A DNA stretch of 64,000 nt, taken from NCBI GenBank assembly GCA_011392765.1, contig WYCW01000004.1, forward strand, positions 404,538 through 468,537. Reading direction: 5' to 3'. Source of the stretch: Candidatus Thiosymbion ectosymbiont of Catanema sp. Cochon2018. GTDB taxonomy: Bacteria; Pseudomonadota; Gammaproteobacteria; Chromatiales; Chromatiaceae. A program made the position numbers and the translations under genes. Under the pieces are notes generated by a model. That model saw only the letters and a list, made by a program, of their open reading frames with translations, made no database searches and was not told the origin of the DNA. Below, one piece after another: positions 39,943 through 61,818 of this stretch (position 1 is the first letter of the stretch; the number at the start of each line of letters is the position of its first letter).

Positions 39943-42900
39943 ATGAGGACGATGAGTGGAAAGATAAAAGCCGGATTCGGGATAGCCTGCCTGCTGCTCA
40001 TACTGCTGGCCACGGCCGGCCCGGTCTGGGCCCTGGAGCCCGTCGGCCCCGAATCCGAGGCCATGCTCCAAAAGCTCCGTGGGCAGTCAGGCAAAGAGCC
40101 AACCGCGGAGGGTCTGGTCGACGCCCTCAACCGAGCTACGGTCGGCTTTCTCCAGCCCGGCGAGTACGCTCAGGCCGAGATCGTCGCCAGTGAGGCATTG
40201 GCACTGGCCGAGCGGGACCTCGGTCAAGAGCACCAAAAGACACTCGCCGCACTAAACAACCTCGCGGTTTTACTTAATAATCAAGGCCGCTATGACGAGG
40301 CCGAGCCGCTGTATCTACGCGCACTCAAGTCTCACGAGCGGATTCTGGGCGAGGACCATCCCGATACCCTCACCAGTCTCAGCAACCTCGCCGAGTTGTA
40401 TCGAAGGCAAGGCCGTTATGACGAGGCCGAGCCACTCTCGATACGCGCCCACAAGACCCACGAGCGGATACTGGGCCGGGACCATCCCGACACCCTCGTC
40501 AGTGTCAACAACCTCGCCATGCTGTATTACGCACAAGGCCGCTATGACGAGGCCGAGTCGTTCTTTGTGCATGCCCTCGAGACCCACGAACGGATACTAG
40601 GCAAGGACCACCCCAACACCCTCACCAACACCAACAACCTCGCCGGGCTGTATTACGCACAAGGCCGCTATGAGGAGGCCGAACCACTCCTTGTACGCGC
40701 CCTCGAGGCCAGCGAACGGATCCTGGGCCAGGACCACCCACAAACCCTCGGCAGCGTTAACAACCTCGCCGAGTTGTATCGAACACAAGGCCGTTATGAC
40801 GAGGCCGAGCTGCTCTTGGTGCGCGCTCTCAAGGCCCGCAGGCAAGTGCTGGGCCGAAACCATTCCGATACCCTTACCGCCGTCAACAACCTCGCTAGGC
40901 TGTATGAAAGTCAAGGCTATTATCCCAAGGCTGAGCAGCTCTATATGCAGGCACTGGAAGATCGCGAGCGGATACTAGGCCAGGACCACCCCCAGACTCT
41001 GAGTAGTGTCAACGGTCTCGCCGTGCTGTATCAAACACAAGGCCGCTATGGTAAGTCCGAGCTGCTCTATCTACGTGCCCTCGAGGCCCAGGAGCGGGTA
41101 CTAGGTAAGGATCATCCCGATACCATTATTAGCGTCATTAACCTCGCCGACCTGTATCGGGTCCAAGGCCGTTATGGCGAGGCCGAGCTGCTCTACCTGC
41201 GTGCCCTTGAGACCAACAAACGAGTACTGGGCTGGAACCACCCCGATACCCTCATCAGCGTCAACAACCTTGCCGGGCTGTATAAAAGCCAAGGCCGTTA
41301 TGACGAGGCCAAGCCGCTCTATCTGCGCACCCTGGAGGCCCACGAGCGGATACTGGGCCAGGACCACCCCCACACCCTCGTCAGTATCAACAACCTTGCC
41401 GGGCTGCATCGAGTACAAGGACGCTATGATAAGGCCGAACCGCTCTATTTGCGCACCCTCGCAGCCCGTGAACGGATACTTGGCCAAGGCCATCCAGACA
41501 CCCTACTAAGCATCAATAACCTCGCCGGGCTGTATGAAAGCCAAGGCCGTTATGGCAAGGCCGAGCCGCTCTATGTGCGCGCTATCGAGACCGGAAAGCG
41601 GGTGCTGGGTGAGGACCACCCACTCACCCTCAATATTCAGCTCAATCTAGCCGTTGCACTGATCGGCAGTGGGCAGCGAGACCGGGCCTTGGGGGAACTA
41701 CGTCGTGTGGACGAGGGCCTGCGTGGCTTTGTCGGTGCCCAACTCGACACTACACTCAGTGAGCGAATACGTCGCGGCTGGCTGTTGTCCGAATCCAGAT
41801 TCCAGGATGTGGTATTCAGCTTCGCCCTGCAGCACCCGGAACCGGATACCTTACGGCTGGCCGCCGATGTGCTGCTGCGCTGGAAACGCTTGGCCGAGGG
41901 GTCCGAATCCCTGACTGCCCGGTTCGTTCGCTCGACTAAGGACCCGAAGACAAAGGAAACTGCCGAGAAGCTGGCTAAACGTCGCTCGGCGCTGAGCCGG
42001 CTGGTCAACCTGCAAGCACCGGATGACGGCAACAAATCCGCCGCACACGCCAATGCCATCGCTCTAGCGATTAAGGACATCGGGCACCTCGAAGTCGAGT
42101 TGGCCGGACTGAGCGAGGAATTTCGTGACCATCAAGCAAGCCTTGATGTCGATTGGGAGCAGGTAAGATCCGGGCTGCCCAAAGGCTCTGCTCTGCTCTC
42201 CTTACGTGCCTTCAGCCCGGTGGATTTCGCGACCGGCAACTCCGGGGAACCTCATTGGCTAGCCTTGGTAATCCCAGCGGAGCCGGGCACCGGAGCCGAG
42301 ATCCTGCTCAAGGATCTGGGCCCAATCGCACCCACGGAGTCGACACGCAAAGCGTTGCGTAAGACCGGCAACAAGGAATCGGCCCGAACACTCTACCAGC
42401 GGCTCTTCGGCGAGCTGGATGCCGAGTTAGCCAAATATGACCGGCTCTATATCGCCCCGGATGGCGCATTGGATCTGGTCCCCTTTGCTCGTCTGATACT
42501 CCCGAACGGCCGTTATTGGATCGAGCGCCAGGCGTTGCACCGGATCCAGACCGGCCGTGACCTGGTTGCATCTGGTTCGGATTCGGCTTCCGCCGCCGGC
42601 ATGGTCGCTTATGGCGGCGTGGACTATGGTGAAACGGATTGCCCCGAGCCGAAGTCCTCATCCACGGCCAAGCGATCGGGAATCCCATCCCTAACCAGCG
42701 ATGCGGTGGCCGGAGACCGGATGCTGGCTATGAACCGCCGCTTACGTGGTGAGGGACACTGCTTCGATCCGCTCCCGTTTACCGCCCATGAGGCCAAATC
42801 AGTTGCGGATTTCTATTGGGATTCCGACAACCGCAAGGCCGAGATATGGCGAAACCGGGACGCCTCGGAAGACCGACTCAAATCCCTTGAATCCCCGCCG

Positions 42901-43649: not shown

Positions 43650-45458
43650 ATGAACCCCACGCGCATGAAATTCCCCTACGGCATCGCCGATTTCCAGACC
43701 ATTCGGGAGGAAGGCTACCTCTATATCGACCGCACCGACCGCATTCCGCTCATGGAGGAAATCGGCAAACAGGTCCTTTTTCTCCGCCCCCGGCGCTTCG
43801 GCAAAAGCCTGTGGCTCTCGACCCTGGAAAATTACTACGATCTGGCGCAAAGCGATCGCTTCGACGGGATCTTCGGGGGGCTGAAGATCGGCCGCAACCC
43901 CACGCCTCGACATAACAGCTATATCGTCATGGTCTGGGACTTCTCCACCGTCGATACCCAGGGGGACGTCGATTACATCCGGGGCGCACTCTACCGTCAT
44001 ATCAATGTCTGCATCAATGACACGCTTGCCCGTTACCCGGAACTCGAGCGTTTTCCCCTGATCGATGACGCCATCGCTAATTTTCAGGCCCTGGTAAAGG
44101 CAATCGCTCGAACCGATCACAAGCTCTATCTCTTCATCGACGAATACGACAATTTTGCCAACGAGGTGTTGGTGAGCCGGTTGCGGGGGGCCGATCAGTA
44201 TCGGGACCTGGTTTCCGGGGAAGGCGTATTGAAGAGCCTGTTCAAGGCCATCAAGAGCGTCGCCCGCGGTCAAGGGTTGGATCGGGTATTCATGACCGGC
44301 GTCTCGCCGGTGGTGATGAGCGATATCAGCAGCGGTTACAACACCATAAAGACCATCTCCGATTACCCGGAATATAATGATCTATGTGGTTTCACCGCCG
44401 ACGAGCTGCGCGGTCTCCTCGACCGGGTAGCCGACGAATGCGGTCTGTCCCCGGACCAGGCCGATGAGGCCATGGAGACCATGCGCACCTTTTATAACGG
44501 TTACTACTTCTCGTCGAAGCAGTCTTCGTCGACGCACGATTCTCTGATCTACAACCCGACCCTGGCCGTCTATTTCCTCGAAGAGCTGGCGAGATATTGC
44601 GAGTACCCGGCAAGGATCCTGGACAGCAACCTGGCCATGGACCGCAACCGCATCCACTTCGTCGCGGGGCTGCCCCATGGGGAACGGCTGGTCACACAAG
44701 CCCTGGCCGCCAATGAGACCAACCCGGACCAGAGTATCTTCATCGACCGGCCGGCCGATCGCTTCGGTGTCGAGGATATGCTGAACGCCCCCCGAGACGA
44801 GACCTTCCTGGCCTCGCTTCTCTATTACCTGGGGGTGCTCACCCTGGCCGGGCGCGACGAACAAGGCAGACTGCGCCTGACCATCCCGAACCTGGTGGTG
44901 CGCAGCCTCTACGCCGAGCGCCTGTACGATGCCCTGGTGCCCGAGTACGAAGACCGAGAGACGCGGCGGGCGGCGGCGGATCGTTTTTATGCCTACGCCG
45001 ATCCGGAACCCCTGTGCGATTTTATCGAACAGCGATTTTTCAAGGTATTCGACAACCGGGACCTCCGCTGGAGCAATGAGCTCACCGTCAAGACCGCCTT
45101 TCTGACCCTACTCTTCAACGATACTTTCTACATCATGGACTCGGAAACGGCCATCGATCGGGGTTACAGCGATTTGAGCCTCATCCTCCGCCCGGACATG
45201 CGCAAATACAAGAAGCTCCTCGACCACCTGCTGGAATTCAAGTATCTCCCGTGGAAGGCATTGGGAACGAACACCGAGACGGTGCGGGGTATGACCCGGA
45301 AGGAGCTGCGGAAACTTCCGCCTGTGATGGAACAGCTGAATATTGCCGGGGCGCAATTGGCCCGCTATCGGAAAACCCTGGAACGGGTCTATGGTAACAA
45401 ACTGAGACTACACACCCATGCGGTGGTCTGTATCGGACTGGAGCGGTTGGTGTGGTAA
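43650..45458 (+). CDS. AAA-ATPase-like / PD-(D/E)XK protein (DUF1703 type)
   Basis: 602 residues. The N-terminal AAA-ATPase-like domain has MKFPYGIADFQTIREEGYLY, a P-loop of the family form RPRRFGKS at about 46-53 and a Walker B of LYLFIDEYDNF near 163-173. The C-terminal PD-(D/E)XK-like domain runs from about 520 (LILRPDMRKYKKLLDHLLEFKYL). The family is amplified in many symbionts and free-living bacteria; biological role unknown. It follows repeat D4. The start is ATG 43650 (ATG 43665 also possible). Confidence 0.82.
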   Translation: MNPTRMKFPYGIADFQTIREEGYLYIDRTDRIPLMEEIGKQVLFLRPRRFGKSLWLSTLENYYDLAQSDRFDGIFGGLKIGRNPTPRHNSYIVMVWDFSTVDTQGDVDYIRGALYRHINVCINDTLARYPELERFPLIDDAIANFQALVKAIARTDHKLYLFIDEYDNFANEVLVSRLRGADQYRDLVSGEGVLKSLFKAIKSVARGQGLDRVFMTGVSPVVMSDISSGYNTIKTISDYPEYNDLCGFTADELRGLLDRVADECGLSPDQADEAMETMRTFYNGYYFSSKQSSSTHDSLIYNPTLAVYFLEELARYCEYPARILDSNLAMDRNRIHFVAGLPHGERLVTQALAANETNPDQSIFIDRPADRFGVEDMLNAPRDETFLASLLYYLGVLTLAGRDEQGRLRLTIPNLVVRSLYAERLYDALVPEYEDRETRRAAADRFYAYADPEPLCDFIEQRFFKVFDNRDLRWSNELTVKTAFLTLLFNDTFYIMDSETAIDRGYSDLSLILRPDMRKYKKLLDHLLEFKYLPWKALGTNTETVRGMTRKELRKLPPVMEQLNIAGAQLARYRKTLERVYGNKLRLHTHAVVCIGLERLVW

Positions 45459-45602: not shown

Positions 45603-46508
45603 TCACAAACCCTCCACCTCTTCCAGCGTCAGCTGTGTGTATTCCATAATCTTTTCTGCGGGCTCACCTGCTTGCTTCATGATTTTCGCCGTTGCCTTTT
45701 TTCCTGTTTCTATTCCCTTCTCCATGCCCTTCTCCATACCTTTCTCCATGCCCTTTTTTTCTCCTTCCATGTGTCCGTCAACGAAGGAAGAATGGTACAG
45801 GCTGGCCTGATAACGCAACTCTTCGATATGCCATTCGTAAGACAACCTTTCTTCTTCCCCCAGCTTCAGGATATCCAGGACCTCTTTGGCCTTGGTCAGT
45901 CCCTTGGCGCGAAATCCTTCCTCGATCTCTTCGTTCTTCAGAAAATAGATCCACTCATCCAGGGGATCCTTGGCGATGTCGTTGAATCGATTGACCTTCA
46001 GAAGATAGTATTCCGGATAGAGCTCATGGGGGTATTGCTTGCCGAAGAGCGCCTGTTGTTTGTTGTTCAGCTGCAGCTCATCGTGGTAATGGATCCCCTG
46101 GAACCGGGTTTTCCCGTGATAAACATAGTCTTCGCCGTGCCCCAGATCGAAGTACAGGATATTGATGGAAATCACCTTGACGACATTTCCATAGCGTTCC
46201 GCTTTGGATAGGTGCTCCGTAATTGCCTTGGCGGTCGCAAACAGGATCCGTTGCAGATAATCGAATTCCCTTTCGTACTGGACCTCGATGAGAATGATTT
46301 CCTGTTTCCGGTTCCGGACCTTCATGTCCACGCGGTTGGATTTGTCCCGGGCGGTGTCTTGGTTGCTCTCGCTCTCGAGGATCTCCAGGATCTCGATGTC
46401 GTCCTTCAGCAATTCCGACAAGAAGCCTTCCAGTACTTCGTAGTTGGCCTTGCTCCGCAACAGCCGCTTCAGCGCCCAATCGAAGCTGACGAGTTTTCTT
46501 TTGCCCAT
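45603..46508 (-). CDS. Rpn family nuclease / putative transposase
   Basis: 301 residues. Same nuclease core as the copy at 1162 (RVDMKVRNRKQEIILIEVQY, with D and E-V-Q) and the FDWALKRLLRSKANYEVLEG start. The tail differs: after SSFVDGHMEGEKK come repeated GMEK units, a variant of the EG-rich helix. It is convergent with the AAA-type gene. The IS4-like MITE F3 lies upstream. Confidence 0.88.
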   Translation of the reverse strand: MGKRKLVSFDWALKRLLRSKANYEVLEGFLSELLKDDIEILEILESESNQDTARDKSNRVDMKVRNRKQEIILIEVQYEREFDYLQRILFATAKAITEHLSKAERYGNVVKVISINILYFDLGHGEDYVYHGKTRFQGIHYHDELQLNNKQQALFGKQYPHELYPEYYLLKVNRFNDIAKDPLDEWIYFLKNEEIEEGFRAKGLTKAKEVLDILKLGEEERLSYEWHIEELRYQASLYHSSFVDGHMEGEKKGMEKGMEKGMEKGIETGKKATAKIMKQAGEPAEKIMEYTQLTLEEVEGL

Positions 46509-48923: not shown

Positions 48924-49162
48924 GGAGGGAGAGGGGTTTGTTGTGCCGACGGGAACATTCGGGTTACTTGTTTCCGGTTTCGTGCGCAGCTGTCGGAGTC
49001 GTTCCATTATGCAAATGACTCACTCGACCACTTGAAAAATTACCATTACCCGCGTCGCTATCAAGTATGCCTGGATCGCGCTTCGGTGGCCATTGCCGTC
49101 CAGCCGTGTGGATTTCCCGCCGAACCCGTGCTAAGGTCAAAATCCTATAATCAAATAAAAGT
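48924..49162. other. Remnant sequence between C2 and the intI relic
   Basis: An open frame runs through 49166 (peptide with ESFHYANDSLDHLKNYHY) but starts inside the repeat and matches nothing I know. It may be a fragment of a lost gene. It does not read as the continuation of the integrase gene in any frame. Confidence 0.35.
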
Positions 49163-49262
49163 CTAGTACATCATTTCACCCGATATTGCGGGTCCCTGCA
49201 CCGAAGCATACGAACCAGCAGATACTATAAAATTCGCAATATCGGTTGAAACGGGGTACTAG
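49163..49262. mobile_element. About 92-bp MITE with CTAG duplication, inserted in intI (family H)
   Basis: Inverted ends TACATCATTTCACCCGATAT (from 49167) and ATATCGGTTGAAACGGGGTA (to 49258) are flanked by CTAG on both sides (49163-49166, 49259-49262). The insertion ends the integrase frame with the TAG of its CTAG. A lone left-end sequence CTAGTACATCATT is also at 38419. Confidence 0.82.
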
Positions 49263-49348
49263 GTGTAGTGCTTAAAACGGATTTTGTCCCGCACCTGGTC
49301 GAGCAGGCGGGGCTTGGTCCGCGTTCCGGCGGAGGGGGTATTTCCCAT
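49259..49348 (-). pseudogene. intI: Integron integrase, first 29 codons only
   Basis: Reading leftward from ATG 49348: MGNTPSAGTRT, then KPRLLDQVRDKIRFKHY, then T and TAG. The second part is the conserved start of integron tyrosine recombinases (compare VKVLDQLRERIRYLHYS of IntI1). The frame is broken by the family-H MITE immediately after the HY that precedes the S(I/L)RTE motif, and no further intI sequence is seen beyond it. The catalytic domain is lost, so no active integrase is encoded here. The gene is divergent from the cassettes, as in normal integrons. Confidence 0.85.
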
Positions 49349-49377
49349 GTCAGTACCTGACGGGTTTGTCCTATACA

Positions 49378-49393
49378 CTGGCAATATATACAG
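49378..49393 (-). promoter_or_regulatory. LexA (SOS) box in the intI promoter region
   Basis: On the intI strand the sequence is CTGTATATATTGCCAG, which matches 13 of 16 positions of the enterobacterial consensus CTG(TATATATATA)CAG, including both CTG and CAG arms. It lies 30 bases upstream of the intI start. SOS control of integrase genes through LexA is established for several integrons. Confidence 0.75.
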
Positions 49394-49399
49394 GTACTT

Positions 49400-49476
49400 G
49401 CGAACAGGCAAGTAGATTAGACCTCACTTTCGACGTATTTTCTTACGTCGCTTTTGAGGTCTACTTGACGTTAGCC
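49400..49476 (+). other. Candidate integron attI (or first attC-like) site
   Basis: Ends in GTTAGCC at 49470-49476, the integrase cut-site form G/TTRRRY, and the first cassette gene starts 22 bases later. It contains an imperfect hairpin (CAAGTAGA...CCTCA...CGACGTA against TACGTCG...GAGGT...ACTTG). A left-hand RYYYAAC box is not convincing, and the site lies between intI and the cassettes, so attI is favoured. A possible cassette promoter (TTGTCC at 49366 and TATACA at 49387, spacing 15) overlaps the LexA box. Confidence 0.65.
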
Positions 49477-49497
49477 CGATCAATCAGGATTTAGGAA

Positions 49498-50583
49498 TTG
49501 AAAAGACTTCCAAGAGATGCCGAAAAATTCGATGTTATGGATTTGTTCGCATCCATGGCATCAGAGTGCGGCTATAAGATCGATGATCCCACTTCGCAAA
49601 ATGATTTTGTGGAGAGGATACGCAACTCATTCGAAAAGAATAGAAGCAATGACATAACAGTTTATGGCAAGAGAACCGAGTCGTTATTCGCATACGTTGT
49701 AGGGGCACTTGGTAAATCGACCCTGTTAAAACAAGAAGATTCGGGAGCTCTTTACAGCGCTGATGACGTGATAATACCGCCCGACTATAGACTGATACTA
49801 AAGGATGGAAATCAGATTCTAGTTGAAGTAAAAAACTTCCACAATCAAGATCCGTCCGCTCAGTTTACTATAAAACGACGTTACTTTAAGAAACTAGAAA
49901 GCTATTCCGATATATGCGGCAATGATCTGATGTTCGCTATTTTCTTCTCTTCATGGAATCACTGGACACTTTTGTCAATTGATGCATTCGAGGAGAACGA
50001 TGACTCATATGGAATCGATTTCGCAACTGCAATGGCAAAATCAGAGATGTCTTTTATTGGTGACCAAATGATTGGCACCGCTCCGGATCTTGAACTTCAC
50101 CTCCTTACCGATGAAGAAGAGGCAAACATTTTAGATGAAAAAGGGCAAGCCCTTTTCACCACAAGAAAGGTAAAGATACTTTGTGCTGGAAAGGAGGTTC
50201 AAGATTCATTAGAACAAAAAATTGCCTTCTATCTGATGCGTTTTGGTGACTGGATTGGAAAAGATGTAGAAGCACTTGTTTCCAATAACAGGTTATTAGG
50301 AATGAAGTTTGTATTTACTCCAGAAGATGAGACCGAAGAGAATTTTTCTCTGATTGGTAGACTCAGCACAATGGTCACGAATATGTTCAAAGAGCATACC
50401 GTCAAAGACGGGAAAGTCGTTGCAGTGAGTAGCAAGCTAGAACCTGAAAAATTCATGCCTTTCATTCCCGATGACTACAAAGGAAAGGATCTCCCACTAT
50501 GGAGGTTCACTATACAGGCTAACCCGGACTTCAAAGGGCTAACAAAAACTTCCAGCCGACGCGCCAAAGGCGCGCGCGGCTGA
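49498..50583 (+). CDS. Cassette gene 1: PD-(D/E)XK-like hypothetical protein
   Basis: 361 residues from TTG 49498 (TAGGAATTG; an in-frame ATG at codon 14 is an alternative). It is visibly more AT-rich than the flanking genes. The restriction-like core is D96 (PPDYRLILKDG) followed by E110-V-K112 (ILVEVKNF). The rest is unrecognised, ending in a basic SSRRAKGARG encoded by the attC site itself. This is the first cassette: integrase cut site at 49470, gene 22 bases on, attC at the 3' end. A DNA-cleaving defence role is plausible from the motif and the setting, but is inference. Confidence 0.7.
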   Translation: MKRLPRDAEKFDVMDLFASMASECGYKIDDPTSQNDFVERIRNSFEKNRSNDITVYGKRTESLFAYVVGALGKSTLLKQEDSGALYSADDVIIPPDYRLILKDGNQILVEVKNFHNQDPSAQFTIKRRYFKKLESYSDICGNDLMFAIFFSSWNHWTLLSIDAFEENDDSYGIDFATAMAKSEMSFIGDQMIGTAPDLELHLLTDEEEANILDEKGQALFTTRKVKILCAGKEVQDSLEQKIAFYLMRFGDWIGKDVEALVSNNRLLGMKFVFTPEDETEENFSLIGRLSTMVTNMFKEHTVKDGKVVAVSSKLEPEKFMPFIPDDYKGKDLPLWRFTIQANPDFKGLTKTSSRRAKGARG

Positions 50584-50598
50584 AGTTTGCCGTTAGGC
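50537..50598 (+). other. attC site of cassette 1
   Basis: R'' box GGCTAAC at 50537-50543, then AAAAACTTCCAGCC, a central GGCGCGC loop, GGCTGAAGTTTG and R' box GTTAGGC at 50592-50598. About 62 bp, folding into the imperfect hairpin typical of attC. The stop codon of cassette gene 1 lies inside it. Confidence 0.88.
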
Positions 50599-50601
50599 CC
50601 G

Positions 50602-50631
50602 AAAAAACTACCCCCGGCGTGTAACCGGGGG
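50602..50631 (-). terminator. Intrinsic terminator of the symE gene
   Basis: On the reverse strand: CCCCCGG, 7-base loop, CCGGGGG, then TAGTTTTTTC. It is 10 bases past the symE stop and next to the attC cut site, so the cassette carries its own terminator. Confidence 0.82.
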
Positions 50632-50641
50632 CATAAAACTG

Positions 50642-50842
50642 TCAATCTTCCTCTTGCGGCACAAGCAGGAGGAAGTTTTTACGTACAATCACCGATAACG
50701 GGGTATCAATGGTAAATCCGGCTTTCTCGAGCCAAATGCCTTTGAGTAGGATAAAAGGGATTGTCGGATTGCCTTTGTGGGATTGGTTTTTAAGGCAATA
50801 GTCCCTGTGTCCCTCACGGACTTTGAGGTGGCGTATTTTCAT
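50642..50842 (-). CDS. symE: Cassette gene 2: SymE-type toxin, reverse orientation
   Basis: 66 residues from ATG 50842 (MKIRHLKVREGHRDY), preceded by AGGAG seven bases upstream; a longer start at 50884 is less likely. The C-terminal domain IPFILLKGIWLEKAGF and TIDTPLSVIVRKNFLLLV is the SymE fold (AbrB-like). E. coli SymE is an SOS-induced toxin that compacts DNA, held in check by the antisense RNA SymR. Its strand is opposite to the other cassette genes, which is common for toxin cassettes with their own promoter. An antisense RNA over the leader is possible (see findings). Confidence 0.78.
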   Translation of the reverse strand: MKIRHLKVREGHRDYCLKNQSHKGNPTIPFILLKGIWLEKAGFTIDTPLSVIVRKNFLLLVPQEED

Positions 50843-51000
50843 GGATTGCTCCTGTTGCAATTTTCGAGTTGCAAAATTACCCATTTAAGGGTGGCCAGGA
50901 GGTCGAAAACAGCAACAGGTACTGCCTCAGCTATTCCCTGCAAGCAGGTATTGTATTCACTGAGCCTCCCAGCCATGAAGTTCCCGGATTTCGGGCGTAA

Positions 51001-51032
51001 AAAAACCGCAGTACTTCCGGGGTGCGGTTTTT
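51001..51032. terminator. Bidirectional intrinsic terminator in cassette 2
   Basis: Stem AAAAACCGCA / TGCGGTTTTT around GTACTTCCGGGG; a T-run follows on both strands (seven T on the reverse). It would shield symE from outside transcription and could end a forward RNA antisense to the symE leader. The 180 bases from here to the attC show no gene. Confidence 0.78.
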
Positions 51033-51211
51033 GCCCGCCTGTTGGAGTTTTCGAGCTCCGAGAAAAAGAATAGTCATACTGGCTAGTTCGTGTCAAGTGG
51101 TAGTAGAGGTATCATGGCCTGACCAAAGGGTAAAGCGGACCAGCCTACCACGGCGTTGGTTGGGAAAAAGGGGCCAGGCTCAATTGACGGGTCGTTTTTC
51201 ACAGCCCATTC

Positions 51212-51315
51212 GCCTAACATTCGGCTGCAGGCGACCCAATGCCGCGGTCCGGCTCCTCAGCAACTTTCAAGTTCAGTGCCACGCGGCATTGGGCGCCTGA
51301 GCCAAGCCGTTAGAA
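51212..51315 (+). other. attC site of cassette 2
   Basis: R'' GCCTAAC at 51212-51218, then ATTCGGCTGCAGGCG and CCCAATGCCGCG, a 35-base centre, CGCGGCATTGGG, CGCCTGAGCCAAGCC and R' GTTAGAA at 51309-51315. About 104 bp. Left and right halves pair over most of their length with the expected single-base bulges. Confidence 0.92.
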
Positions 51316-51334
51316 GCAAAAGGAATATCGAGTA

Positions 51335-52270
51335 GTGCCTATATTTGAGATATCCGGAAAGCATCTGCTGTCGGTAGAGCAGAAGAACTTTTCCGTGGAA
51401 AAGGAACTGCAAAGCCTGATTGAAGGAAATCTAGGGGCCGTATTTAACTGCCGTTTTGTGGCAACCGAATTTTCAACCGGAGCACAACACGCTGGAAGAA
51501 TTGACACGTTGGCATTATCGGAAGAAGACAATCCCGTAATCATCGAATACAAGAAAATTGAATCCTCCGAGCTCATCAATCAAAGTCTGTTTTACCTGCA
51601 TTGGATTCAGGATCATAAAGGAGATTTTGAGATAGCCGTTCAAAAAGCCCTTGGTAATGGAGTGCAGGTTGACTGGTCAGATGTACGAGTCATATGCATT
51701 GCTCCAAACTATAAAAAGTATGACCTGCATGCCGTTCAAGTCATGGGGGCAAACATCGAACTATGGAAATATCGCCTATTCGCAAACAACAGCTTGTATC
51801 TGGAAGAAGTCTTTCACAATACAAAGGCCACATCACCAGCAACAGAACCAACAGAAAAGAATCCTGTTATGGTGGAGGCAGGAAAAAAGGCGGCGCAAGT
51901 ACGGGCAACAGCCACATACACATTTGAAGAACACCTTGAAGGGAAACCGAAAAAGATACAGGAGCTTATCCATAGCATCCGTGAATTTGTCTTAGGACTG
52001 GATTCTGCTATTGAAGAAGTTCCAAAAAAGCTGTATGTAGCTTATAAGGCTTCCCAAAACATAGTATGTGTCGAAGCTCAGACAAAGCATATAAAGCTGA
52101 TCGTAAAGCTCAAACCCTCTGATGTAACCGATCCGCCAAAGACTTTTAGAGATGTCAGCAATATTGGCCACTTTGGGACCGGCGACGTTGAATTCACCAT
52201 CTCAACAACAGACGAGTTGGAAAAAGTCCGGAAGTACATCGAGATGGCATATAACAAGGTCGGTGGCTAA
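51335..52270 (+). CDS. Cassette gene 3: PD-(D/E)XK plus DUF5655-like protein
   Basis: 311 residues from GTG 51335, 25 bases after the cut site. The N-terminal nuclease-like domain has GRIDTLALSEEDNPVIIEYK (D57, then E71-Y-K73) and NQSLFYLHWIQDHK. The C-terminal domain from about 195 (FEEHLEGKPKKIQELIHSI to the end) resembles DUF5655. Proteins of this build are found in defence-type islands and are probably DNA-acting; activity is not demonstrated. AT-rich composition, forward orientation, attC directly after the stop codon. Confidence 0.78.
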   Translation: MPIFEISGKHLLSVEQKNFSVEKELQSLIEGNLGAVFNCRFVATEFSTGAQHAGRIDTLALSEEDNPVIIEYKKIESSELINQSLFYLHWIQDHKGDFEIAVQKALGNGVQVDWSDVRVICIAPNYKKYDLHAVQVMGANIELWKYRLFANNSLYLEEVFHNTKATSPATEPTEKNPVMVEAGKKAAQVRATATYTFEEHLEGKPKKIQELIHSIREFVLGLDSAIEEVPKKLYVAYKASQNIVCVEAQTKHIKLIVKLKPSDVTDPPKTFRDVSNIGHFGTGDVEFTISTTDELEKVRKYIEMAYNKVGG

Positions 52271-52274
52271 TGGC

Positions 52275-52334
52275 TTCTAACATCCGGTTCCAGGCGATGC
52301 TCGTACCTCGCACGCCTGAACCGGGGCGTTATAC
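52275..52334 (+). other. attC site of cassette 3
   Basis: R'' TTCTAAC at 52275-52281, then ATCCGGTTCCAGGCG, a short centre, CGCCTGAACCGGGGC and R' GTTATAC at 52328-52334. 60 bp, a compact attC of the common class. Confidence 0.92.
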
Positions 52335-52365
52335 GGCAATAAATGCATTGCTTCGATCTAAATGA

Positions 52366-53955
52366 ATGGGAATGAAGTCCTCATCATTACAATGCCTGAA
52401 GAAACTCGCAGAAGAGTTTGGATACACACCATACGGGGGAGACCGTCGCGTTTCTTTTCGGGACGAGCGTACCAGTATCAACATAAATTTCGAGTTCACG
52501 AACGATAAGCGAAACACCGTATTCGTATACCTCTATGTCCGCACAACTTCTTGGGATCTGCCAGGTGAACGTACAGATGCGAATGAGTTCATCTCCGTGA
52601 TGTTGGGAGTGTTTCTCCGCGTTGAGGACGGCATCTCTTCAAGTCTTTGGGATATTCCTCATCCCGCAGAGATTTCATTATCCGAAACTGAAATCTATGC
52701 GCGATATCTTGTCGCGAACCAACCATTCGACTCCGAATACGTGCTAGATGATGGTGGCGTCGAGAACATTCGTCACATCTTGGGTACTGTACGGCAATTT
52801 GAATTTAACATGCCATGGCTATTTGACTGGACAGTGCAGGATAAGGACGGAGTGCCAGAGGCGGAGCAAGGCTATGGATGGGTTGAGATCGACGATTGGG
52901 CCAAGAAAATTGCCTCAACGATTGATGAACCCTGGCAAGAACAAGAGTGGCCTGAAAAGATTCTCCAAATGACACCTTCCGAATTGCCTGGTCCAAACCC
53001 GGAAAATATCCAGTATAACTGGCGCATTAACCCAAACTGGAAATACTATCGAAGCATTGCATCCGGTGTAACAGTTTATGAAATGCCTGGTTTTGCTTCG
53101 GCAATCCTGGACCGAATTTCCAAGGAACCGCCCTGGCAAACACTAGACGGGACAAGATGCAAATTGTACTTAACAAACACTACATGCAATGCCATCACAT
53201 ATGCGGATTCCGATCTAGCACATAAGCTGCTTGACGAATTGAGTACTGACGAAGCAGCGACAGCCATTGTATGCATACCTTTGGAGCACGACTTAATTGC
53301 AGCTTCGCCGGAACATATCGTCTTCATAAGACGCGAAACGGGGCGAAAACTATTCGAGAATGAACGTGAATCTATACGCAAGCGACACCAACGCGAGTCG
53401 ACACTTCTTTTCCCAATTCGCAGTTTTGAATGGCAAGAACACATTGACGACCAACAATTTGAGCTAATGATTTTGGATTTGCTTAAACGTGAGCCAGGTG
53501 TTCAACGAGCGCGGATCGTCAGTGGCTCAACCGAGCCTGATGGTGGGCGAGACATCTTGTGCGATTGGCACACGCCACCAACCCCAGGCGATCTAATGAT
53601 TGACAATGTACCCCCTTCTGTTCTTCGCAGAGTAATCGTTCAATGTAAAGCATCCAAAAAATCGGTCAACAAATCAGACGTACAAGATATCCGCGATACG
53701 GTGGAACACAACGAGGCGGAAGGATACTTTCTTGCCGTTTCCTTGCACCTTACAACGCCGTTGACAGACCATCTCGATAGAATTCGGCAGCGTGGTCAAA
53801 TTTGGGTTGATTGGTGGACAAGAAGCGAAATAGAGGAGAGACTGGCAAAGCACCAAGACATCGCACAAAAATACCCTGGAGTGGTTGATGGTGTGCCCGA
53901 CGGACCTACGTACGGACTTGGTACGGCGCCGAGCGGTCTTCCATTTCCAGGATAG
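52366..53955 (+). CDS. Cassette gene 4: Mrr-like restriction endonuclease
   Basis: 529 residues from ATG 52366, 37 bases after the cut site. About 350 N-terminal residues are unrecognised. The C-terminal domain has the Mrr-type nuclease core: QFELMILDLLKREPG, DGGRD (392-396) and Q426-C-K428 in VIVQCKASKK. Such type IV-like enzymes cut modified or foreign DNA. It is AT-rich like its neighbours. No attC is recognisable after the stop, so this may be the last, truncated cassette, or the array end fused to sox DNA. Confidence 0.78.
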   Translation: MGMKSSSLQCLKKLAEEFGYTPYGGDRRVSFRDERTSININFEFTNDKRNTVFVYLYVRTTSWDLPGERTDANEFISVMLGVFLRVEDGISSSLWDIPHPAEISLSETEIYARYLVANQPFDSEYVLDDGGVENIRHILGTVRQFEFNMPWLFDWTVQDKDGVPEAEQGYGWVEIDDWAKKIASTIDEPWQEQEWPEKILQMTPSELPGPNPENIQYNWRINPNWKYYRSIASGVTVYEMPGFASAILDRISKEPPWQTLDGTRCKLYLTNTTCNAITYADSDLAHKLLDELSTDEAATAIVCIPLEHDLIAASPEHIVFIRRETGRKLFENERESIRKRHQRESTLLFPIRSFEWQEHIDDQQFELMILDLLKREPGVQRARIVSGSTEPDGGRDILCDWHTPPTPGDLMIDNVPPSVLRRVIVQCKASKKSVNKSDVQDIRDTVEHNEAEGYFLAVSLHLTTPLTDHLDRIRQRGQIWVDWWTRSEIEERLAKHQDIAQKYPGVVDGVPDGPTYGLGTAPSGLPFPG

Positions 53956-54216
53956 TGAAAGGGCACCGAAACGGTCGAGATATCGCGTTCAGAAGATTAC
54001 CCAAACCGGGTCGATCCACTTCTTCACTTGCTCGTCGAGCCGATAAAGCCGGGTGCGCCGTAATCCGACGGCAAGGACGAACCCGTGGCACTTTTGGTCA
54101 TACCCTATCTGTCGCCGGGCAGACGTCTCGCCTAGGCTAGTCGTCTTCCCCCCTGGGCACGGGGGCGAGTTTGTAATAATATTTTTATATTCACGGATTT
54201 TCACAGAGGCTCTTTA
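53956..54216. other. Junction between the cassette array and soxX
   Basis: No attC found. The GC-rich part 53990-54130 has an open reverse frame (ending RTRLYRLDEQVKKWID) that may be a gene fragment. A possible soxX promoter is the AT-rich AATAATATTTTTATATT at about 54174-54190. This is the only remaining upstream region for soxXAK. Confidence 0.4.
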
Positions 54217-56459: not shown

Positions 56460-56544
56460 GCGCAGGTGGCGGAATCGGTAGACGCGCTGGATTTAGGTTC
56501 CAGTGGGGAAACCCGTGGGGGTTCGAGTCCCCCCCTGCGCACCA
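56460..56544 (+). tRNA. tRNA-Leu (anticodon UAG)
   Basis: 85 bases including encoded CCA. Acceptor stem GCGCAGG / CCTGCGC, discriminator A, anticodon arm CTGGA-TTTAGGT-TCCAG with anticodon TAG, a variable arm typical of class II tRNAs (TGGGGAAACCCGT), and T arm with GGGTTCGAGTCCC-type loop. It reads CUN leucine codons. A possible -10 element TATAGAAT lies about 20 bases upstream, just beyond the B6 element. Confidence 0.93.
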
Positions 56545-61518: not shown

Positions 61519-61818
61519 GACAAGGAGACCTGAAGAATTGCTCGAACCTGGCCGCCATGTTATAAAACAAGCTGAGATTCGGCAAACAGATTGCCTATTG
61601 CCGCGGTGAGTACCATGGCGGTAATCCCCGAGAGCGAAAAACGGTCGTTTTTCGCTCTATTTTTTGGCCCATTCTTCGGGTCGGAGCGGCGCACCGTCGG
61701 GGCCGGTCGCCGTAAAAAAACCACACACGCATCGACACGGTGGGCCGGGTGCCTGTAAACGGGTCGCTTGCCGGGATGCGTGGAGGCCAAACCCAAACCT
61801 TGACGAGGTCCTGTATAA
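61519..61818. promoter_or_regulatory. map-rpsB divergent control region
   Basis: It contains the strong hairpin described separately and about 150 bases of rpsB leader with no further recognisable element. Ribosomal protein S2 genes often have autoregulated leaders; whether this is one cannot be told by eye. Confidence 0.45.
61631..61666 (+). terminator. Perfect hairpin with T-run upstream of rpsB
   Basis: 13-bp perfect stem AGAGCGAAAAACG / CGTTTTTCGCTCT followed by ATTTTTT. No forward gene lies upstream of it in this strand, so it is either an attenuator in the rpsB leader or the terminator of an unannotated small RNA. Confidence 0.7.

Follow-up and report, generated by a model that had tools for sequence, protein, structure and literature searches.

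A decayed integron island between soxB and soxX, very probably one of at least 44 on a chromosome with ten like attI heads and one intact, different integrase gene

Background

Between the divergent genes soxB and soxX in the genome of Candidatus Thiosymbion ectosymbiont of Catanema sp. Cochon2018 lies a small island of integron parts, within the 64-kb stretch analysed here (the window; contig C11, positions 404538-468537, of this 5.0-Mb genome of 16 contigs, called G000). The island consists of the start of an integron integrase gene (intI), a candidate attI recombination site divergent from it, three gene cassettes bounded by attC sites and one further gene behind the last of these (Table 1). 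The intI start, the intergenic part and attI together are called the head in what follows. A first-pass annotation of the window had described the island as a relic chromosomal integron that is immobile and has lost its integrase. We find this wording to understate the situation, since the island belongs to a scattered set of at least 44. Very probably it is a decayed integron island, one of many on a chromosome that carries ten like heads and a single intact intI of a different kind.

Methods

Comparisons were made with G002, a genome of the same genus as G000, with G021 and G007, which represent two other genera, and with G011, from the same family and another genus. Candidate attC sites were sought with a scanner combining box motifs and paired arms that form a stem (a lower score being better), for which 200 dinucleotide shuffles of a 4.95-kb stretch served as null. 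Two earlier, stricter versions of this scanner missed all three sites of the window, and the box requirements were relaxed, since the R' box belongs mostly to the next cassette. Independently of the window, a covariance model (R1) was trained on 11 attC sites taken from other loci, without window sequence. As a control, R1 was run on 16 of 80 integron loci of other organisms, where it gave 44 matches in 11 loci and none in the remaining five; every match lay on the minus strand with intI on the plus strand, that is, on the strand opposite intI.

For the attC count in G000, which includes the 11 training sites of R1, the best 150 of 1953 candidates were scored; the count is a lower bound, because of this limited scoring and because attC 3 of the window and the site behind the head of island L014 (L014:6819-6878) are absent from it. 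Integrase genes were sought with the TIGR02249 profile in G000 and 14 control genomes, which yielded 15 rows, two of them above the curated cut-off. Comparisons with published systems draw on parts of the cited texts.

Results

Anatomy of the window island

Run on the 64-kb window, R1 returned exactly three attC sites, all on one strand, and nothing else at E<=5. They are the three sites that had been proposed, with the same lengths and GTT cores, so that the covariance-model check suggested at the time bore out an integron remnant. The scanner scored them at -41.7, -48.9 and -38.8 (attC 1 to 3), and shuffles reached -36 or better 0.005 times per shuffle. A fourth candidate at about 52803-52888 was rejected, its score of -29.1 being at chance level and R1 giving no match.

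Table 1 Features of the island and its immediate surroundings (window positions)
Feature	Position	Strand	Remarks
Repeat like a miniature inverted-repeat transposable element (MITE), 100 bp	49163-49262		terminal inverted repeats of ~28 bp; terminates the intI stub; another copy, 97% identical, at G000:C1:1897792-1897891
intI 5' stub, 29 codons	49259-49348	-	translation MGNTPSAGTRTKPRLLDQVRDKIRFKHYT, then the stop, where the MITE-like repeat adjoins
Head, 211 bp (intI start, intergenic part, attI)	49264-49474	+	DNA copies elsewhere in the genome
CTG-N10-CAG palindrome CTGGCAATATATACAG	49378-49393		CTG-N10-CAG kept in 12 of 14 heads; putative regulatory box
attI candidate, left limit approximate	49441-49474	+	core G^TTAG, crossover G49470^T49471
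Cassette 1 open reading frame (ORF), 361 amino acids, TTG start	49498-50583	+	weak PD-(D/E)XK / type II restriction enzyme matches
attC 1, 62 bp	50537-50598	+	crossover G50592; R1 58.8 bits, E 3e-14
Cassette 2 symE-like toxin gene	50642-50842	-	PF08845, E 9.6e-9; antisense to the array
Cassette 2 sRNA-Xcc1 (RF02221)	50885-50974	-	upstream of symE; 56.9 bits (gathering score 53)
attC 2 unit (104-bp attC at 51212-51315 and conserved 45-bp lead-in)	51166-51315	+	crossover G51309; R1 42.4 bits, E 1.3e-9
Cassette 3 ORF, 311 amino acids, GTG start	51335-52270	+	DUF5655, PF18899, E 6.9e-14; PADLOC candidate defence family PDC-S18, E 5.5e-113
attC 3, 60 bp	52275-52334	+	crossover G52328; R1 42.6 bits, E 1.1e-9
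Mrr-type endonuclease-domain ORF, 529 amino acids, past the last crossover	52366-53955	+	PF04471, E 2.6e-7
Block absent from the G002 soxB-soxX spacer, ~5.0 kb	49100-54130, approximate		left limit by eye

The cassettes are AT-rich as had been noticed, with a guanine-plus-cytosine content of 0.42-0.52 against 0.58 for the window. The regular cassette grammar that had been read into the array stood in so far as three attC-bounded cassettes are present, and failed for cassette 2, in which symE and sRNA-Xcc1 run against the array. It likewise did not extend to the Mrr-like gene past the last crossover: R1 finds no attC behind it in the window, and neither this ORF nor the right end of the block has DNA copies elsewhere in G000 at E<=0.01.

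Classified by its parts, the island resembles a complete integron in having, as far as can be read from the letters, an attI beside a divergent intI, as well as an array of cassettes that end in attC sites (three sites), and departs from one in that the window holds a stub in place of a functional intI beside attI. With at least two attC sites and no integrase nearby, it qualifies as a cluster of attC sites lacking integrases (CALIN). It is not a gene cassette of the Delta-attI type, R1 detecting no attC upstream of the window head.

Copies of the head

The head is present ten times in G000, the window included; eight of the other copies are 94-96% and one (L017) is 82% identical to the window head. 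Four further copies, at 93-95%, lie in G002. Several G000 heads continue into longer intI pseudogenes, the longest covering 215 positions of TIGR02249 with an internal stop, which upholds the earlier reading of the reverse stub as the start of an integron integrase; none of the ten has an intact intI. The attI candidate proposed at 49470 also held up, as its core is the constant right end of the heads: GTTA[G/T] is found there in 13 of the 14 heads of both genomes and is lost in L016. On the cassette side, homology between heads stops at the attI core or no more than about ten bases from it (again except in L016), whereas the left ends differ in nearly every copy (-190 to about -1613) and a common outer boundary was looked for and not found. 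In the stretches compared, 13 of 14 heads have an attC downstream on the proper strand, L054 having none, and three of the ten G000 heads (L011, L012 and L016) have a same-strand attC upstream. CTG-N10-CAG persists in 12 of the 14 heads in spite of their dead intI genes. The palindrome CTGGCAATATATACAG resembles what we take to be a LexA box (putative). Chromatiaceae are said to lack LexA, according to part of PMC3108266.

The G000 heads lie near genes that are unrelated to one another, of the AcrB, MacB/FtsX, OAD-beta, Lon, MoeA, STAND-WD40 and ferredoxin types. L010 and L011 have about 1.6 kb in common around the decayed intI, which is broken off at the same point in both; therefore at least one copying step took place after intI decay. 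Just behind the L010 attI lies an ORF for an IS200-like transposase, the only one among 30 selected flanking ORFs searched. When L010 is set against contig C765 of G002 (L156), the left end of the island falls near the end of a gene that is longer in G002; by eye, the longer ORF looks like a multihaem cytochrome, and it stands beside the same FtsX gene. In L015, intI is broken at about -493 to -200 from attI by an element of about 290 bp with inverted ends and an 8-bp target duplication, AAAACGGA. The ~28-bp ends of the MITE-like repeat of the window gave some three dozen weak rows in G000 (E up to 2.9).

Among 55 genomes searched, its own included, the head matched three: G000, G002 and, by a weak 35-bp match, G048. 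In a weakly supported tree, G002 heads are intermixed with those of G000, and without L017 mean identity is 93.4% within a genome and 92.7% between G000 and G002. The three G002 heads other than L052 adjoin genes that, named from their ORFs, are putatively of glycogen metabolism, 2-oxoacid oxidoreductase and MoxR/VWA type. In the stretches compared, what the flanks of the four G002 heads have in common with those of the G000 heads is limited to the head, the cassettes and dispersed repeats of no more than about 310 bp, the left flank of L052 having been compared over 0.9 kb only.

Islands across the genome and the intact integrase

With R1, G000 gave 124 rows at E<=0.001, which together with attC 3 of the window makes at least 125 attC sites. 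Clustering of these sites and 11 heads at 8 kb resulted in at least 44 islands, namely 11 with a head, 16 with several attC sites only and 17 single sites. Of the 11 head-bearing islands, ten carry the same head and one an intact, different intI. Of the 26 multi-element islands, 25 have all their elements on the same strand; the exception consists of two neighbouring arrays that were merged. The islands draw on a common pool of attC sites and cassettes. The 150-bp unit around the 104-bp attC of the window has at least 39 further copies at 91-98% identity (best 40 of 114 candidates).

The intact intI (C11:532233-533174) lies 78 kb from the window and encodes 338 amino acids with 459 bits to TIGR02249 and what we take to be the catalytic motifs of integrases. 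Its array includes the 104-bp attC family and short repeated units that are common to islands of the other lineage. The nearest relatives of the decayed IntI, among the integron loci of other organisms that were fetched, are 73% identical to it, as compared to 58% for the intact IntI of G000; hence two integrase lineages meet in this genome.

Counted over 30 genomes including its own, several of which are fragmented, R1 matches numbered at least 117 in G000, at least 56 in G002, at least 30 in G011 and 0-17 in the others, among the matches listed. In G011, a genome of 2.4 Mb, the listed matches fall on at least ten contigs, from which the scattering of cassettes may be wider than the genus of G000. 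Matches to group II introns were seen in or beside arrays at L009:8130-8402, L017:7547-7623 and L017:9137-9228 (seven of 11 loci searched).

Cassettes shared with other loci

The cassette genes were also sought elsewhere, as had been advised. The array of L016 holds a copy of cassette 2, with a SymE 98.5% identical in amino acids and DNA 88.5% identical over 478 bp, and sRNA-Xcc1 has six matches in G000, four of them above the cut-off. In Xanthomonas, symE with sRNA-Xcc1 is the most widespread cassette and antisense to the array, according to parts of PMC12444791; the arrangement there is the one seen here, with the sRNA upstream of symE and both antisense, while here the host lineage is another one and one genome holds several copies of sRNA-Xcc1. 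Cassette 3 has a homologue on a Saccharobesus litoralis plasmid (NZ_CP026605.1), where it is split over two reading frames (79% and 66% amino acid identity) and directly followed by an attC (R1, 27.8 bits); a search of plasmid DNA with 49498-52330 gave this one record, for cassette 3 only. Between G002 (L052) and G000 (L015), common cassettes are 98.8% identical over 768 bp and 96.2% over 366 bp, soxB being 89% identical. With symE and sRNA-Xcc1, the PDC-S18 gene, the Mrr-like gene and the weakly nuclease-like gene, the predicted contents are in keeping with a reservoir of toxin genes and candidate anti-phage genes.

The soxB-soxX site and its surroundings

Three relatives have soxB and soxX without an integron in between, at a spacing of about 0.5 kb in G002, 0.54 kb in G021 and 0.27 kb in G007. 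For the remaining 16 soxX loci, the short flanks compared contained no soxB match. As soxB and soxX are direct neighbours in these three genomes, the block of about 5.0 kb in the window reads most simply as a derived insertion. No transposase, terminal repeats or target duplication, as a transposon-borne integron might have left, were recognised at the sox block; the MITE-like repeat abuts the stub.

Beyond soxB, the window contains an AAA-ATPase-like/PDDEXK_9 gene (43650-45458) and a gene of the PDDEXK_2 transposase family (45603-46508). A tandem array of repeat units about 126 bp long, 72-77% alike, occupies about 40256-41632, and a transfer RNA and a t44 RNA (Rfam RF00127) lie at 56460-56541 and 61704-61792, respectively.

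Discussion

To explain the island, we consider that the intact IntI would serve orphan cassettes and arrays in trans, as CALINs are stated to be mobilisable in trans in parts of PMC12444791. The cassettes shared between islands may be an indirect sign of insertion and excision driven by IntI. With less weight, we suggest that IntI may also have dispersed the heads themselves, which as attI or truncated attI would form the recombining ends of larger blocks. In class 1 and class 2 integrons, pieces of a truncated attI, which vary in length and reach 244 nucleotides, are working cassette ends (parts of PMC12901181); together with the attC upstream of three of the ten heads, this makes head junctions formed by IntI plausible by analogy. 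One might go further and regard the integron platform as a repeat family, in which integrase-less attI heads, serving as recombination ends, are copied and moved by IntI in trans and each founds a new island, an idea that we put forward tentatively and consider rather doubtful. Either IntI, working in trans at attC, attI and truncated attI sites, or repeats and rearrangement may have moved the heads.

Several observations weigh against a role of IntI in the history of these islands or against parts of it. The ends of the sox block show no visible GTT/GWT crossover and no target duplication, so that this insertion is not plainly IntI-mediated. Compared with G002, the L010 island stands at a synteny breakpoint and is no clean insertion, and the comparison of L014 with G002 likewise gave no clean empty site. 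The 58% identity between the intact IntI and the decayed lineage that owns the window attI means that cross-recognition of this attI is not assured. Moreover, IntI, attI and attC are known here from sequence alone, and as every one of the 14 control genomes also gives weak TIGR02249 matches, the lowest-scoring of the 15 rows may be Xer-type recombinases.

Some of these points favour a different history, in which transposons, MITEs or homologous recombination at dispersed repeats, and not IntI, spread the heads and arrays, with the integron parts as passengers. MITE-like repeats lie at intI breakpoints (in the window, and in L015 with its target duplication), the 1.6 kb shared by L010 and L011 exceeds what a recombination site needs, and, together with the sox junctions and the L010 breakpoint with its IS200-like ORF behind attI, these repeats make repeats and rearrangement a serious rival. 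It is a real possibility, somewhat short of an even chance, since no common outer boundary of the heads was seen, their left ends varying and their right end being the attI core, and since a transposase accompanies L010 only among the flanking ORFs searched. That each head was instead acquired separately from relatives, as horizontal arrivals of the same integron, agrees with the intermixed head tree and with identities that are nearly as high between the two genomes as within one; the head is, however, restricted to three of the genomes searched, and L010 and L011 have one broken intI end in common, for which reasons we hold this to be highly improbable.

A single sedentary relic, deprived of its integrase and now inert, would account for the lack of intI past codon 29, the stub that ends at the MITE-like repeat and the last gene without attC. 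Nine more heads, an intact IntI, a cassette common to another array and the integron-free site in relatives speak against it; as a full account it is largely refuted, and we regard it as improbable. Of the earlier description as an immobile chromosomal integron, the absence of a functional integrase at this place stands; immobility is unsupported as worded, given ten heads in the genome and an intact IntI encoded 78 kb away, and is also countered by the shared cassette 2 and by the integron-free locus of G002, G021 and G007. Chance inverted repeats with a chance IntI-like peptide have practically no probability, for the shuffles and the independent R1 rule out a chance origin of the attC sites and the DNA copies of the stub run on into intI. 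A decayed island within a scattered set remains the reading that we favour.

Decayed and multiple integrons are already known from surveys. In parts of PMC9024848, more than one IntI is given for 22% of IntI-bearing genomes, with two Klebsiella genomes holding four complete integrons each; an earlier survey put the share at 20% and laid emphasis on pseudogenes (parts of PMC2426708). In Xanthomonas, about 50% of the genomes have CALINs at places other than the ilvD integron (parts of PMC12444791). Such CALINs or pseudo-integrons and the G000 islands are alike in having attC arrays without a working intI beside them. They differ in that a single genome here holds at least 44 islands, ten of which have kept a copy of one attI head, whereas the Xanthomonas CALINs occupy seven chromosomal loci (in species with more than ten genomes), as given in the same source. 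Truncated-attI cassettes (PMC12901181, in part) are matched by the three heads with a same-strand attC upstream; here, the heads are chromosomal, occur at many loci, belong to another integrase lineage and are recognised from their sequence, and the window head has no upstream attC. Integration of cassettes into genomes by attC x attG recombination (Loot et al. 2024, as cited in a part of PMC12444791) would account for small islands and lone attC sites wherever they lie on the chromosome, but is described there for cassettes and not for attI-bearing heads as found here.

Conclusions

The Vibrio superintegron is one array of more than 100 cassettes with one prevailing attC family. Compared to this sedentary chromosomal integron (parts of PMC11551772), G000 too has more than 100 attC sites and one prevailing attC family, but in scattered islands with many heads instead of one array. 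A search of one open-access literature library found no description of ten attI-head copies in one chromosome, which is no proof of absence. Chromosomal integrons are usually viewed as one array at one place; G000 presents dozens of islands with ten like landing sites, and G002 carries four heads, none at a place common with G000 in the stretches compared. These genomes thereby offer a natural setting for studying how integron platforms spread, whether a foreign integrase serves orphan attI and attC sites, and by what route cassettes arrive between ordinary operons such as sox. They also yield a model of attC sites and a set of cassette genes that are anti-phage candidates. If the platform is indeed a repeat family, a chromosomal integron would multiply its landing sites in the manner of a non-autonomous mobile element.

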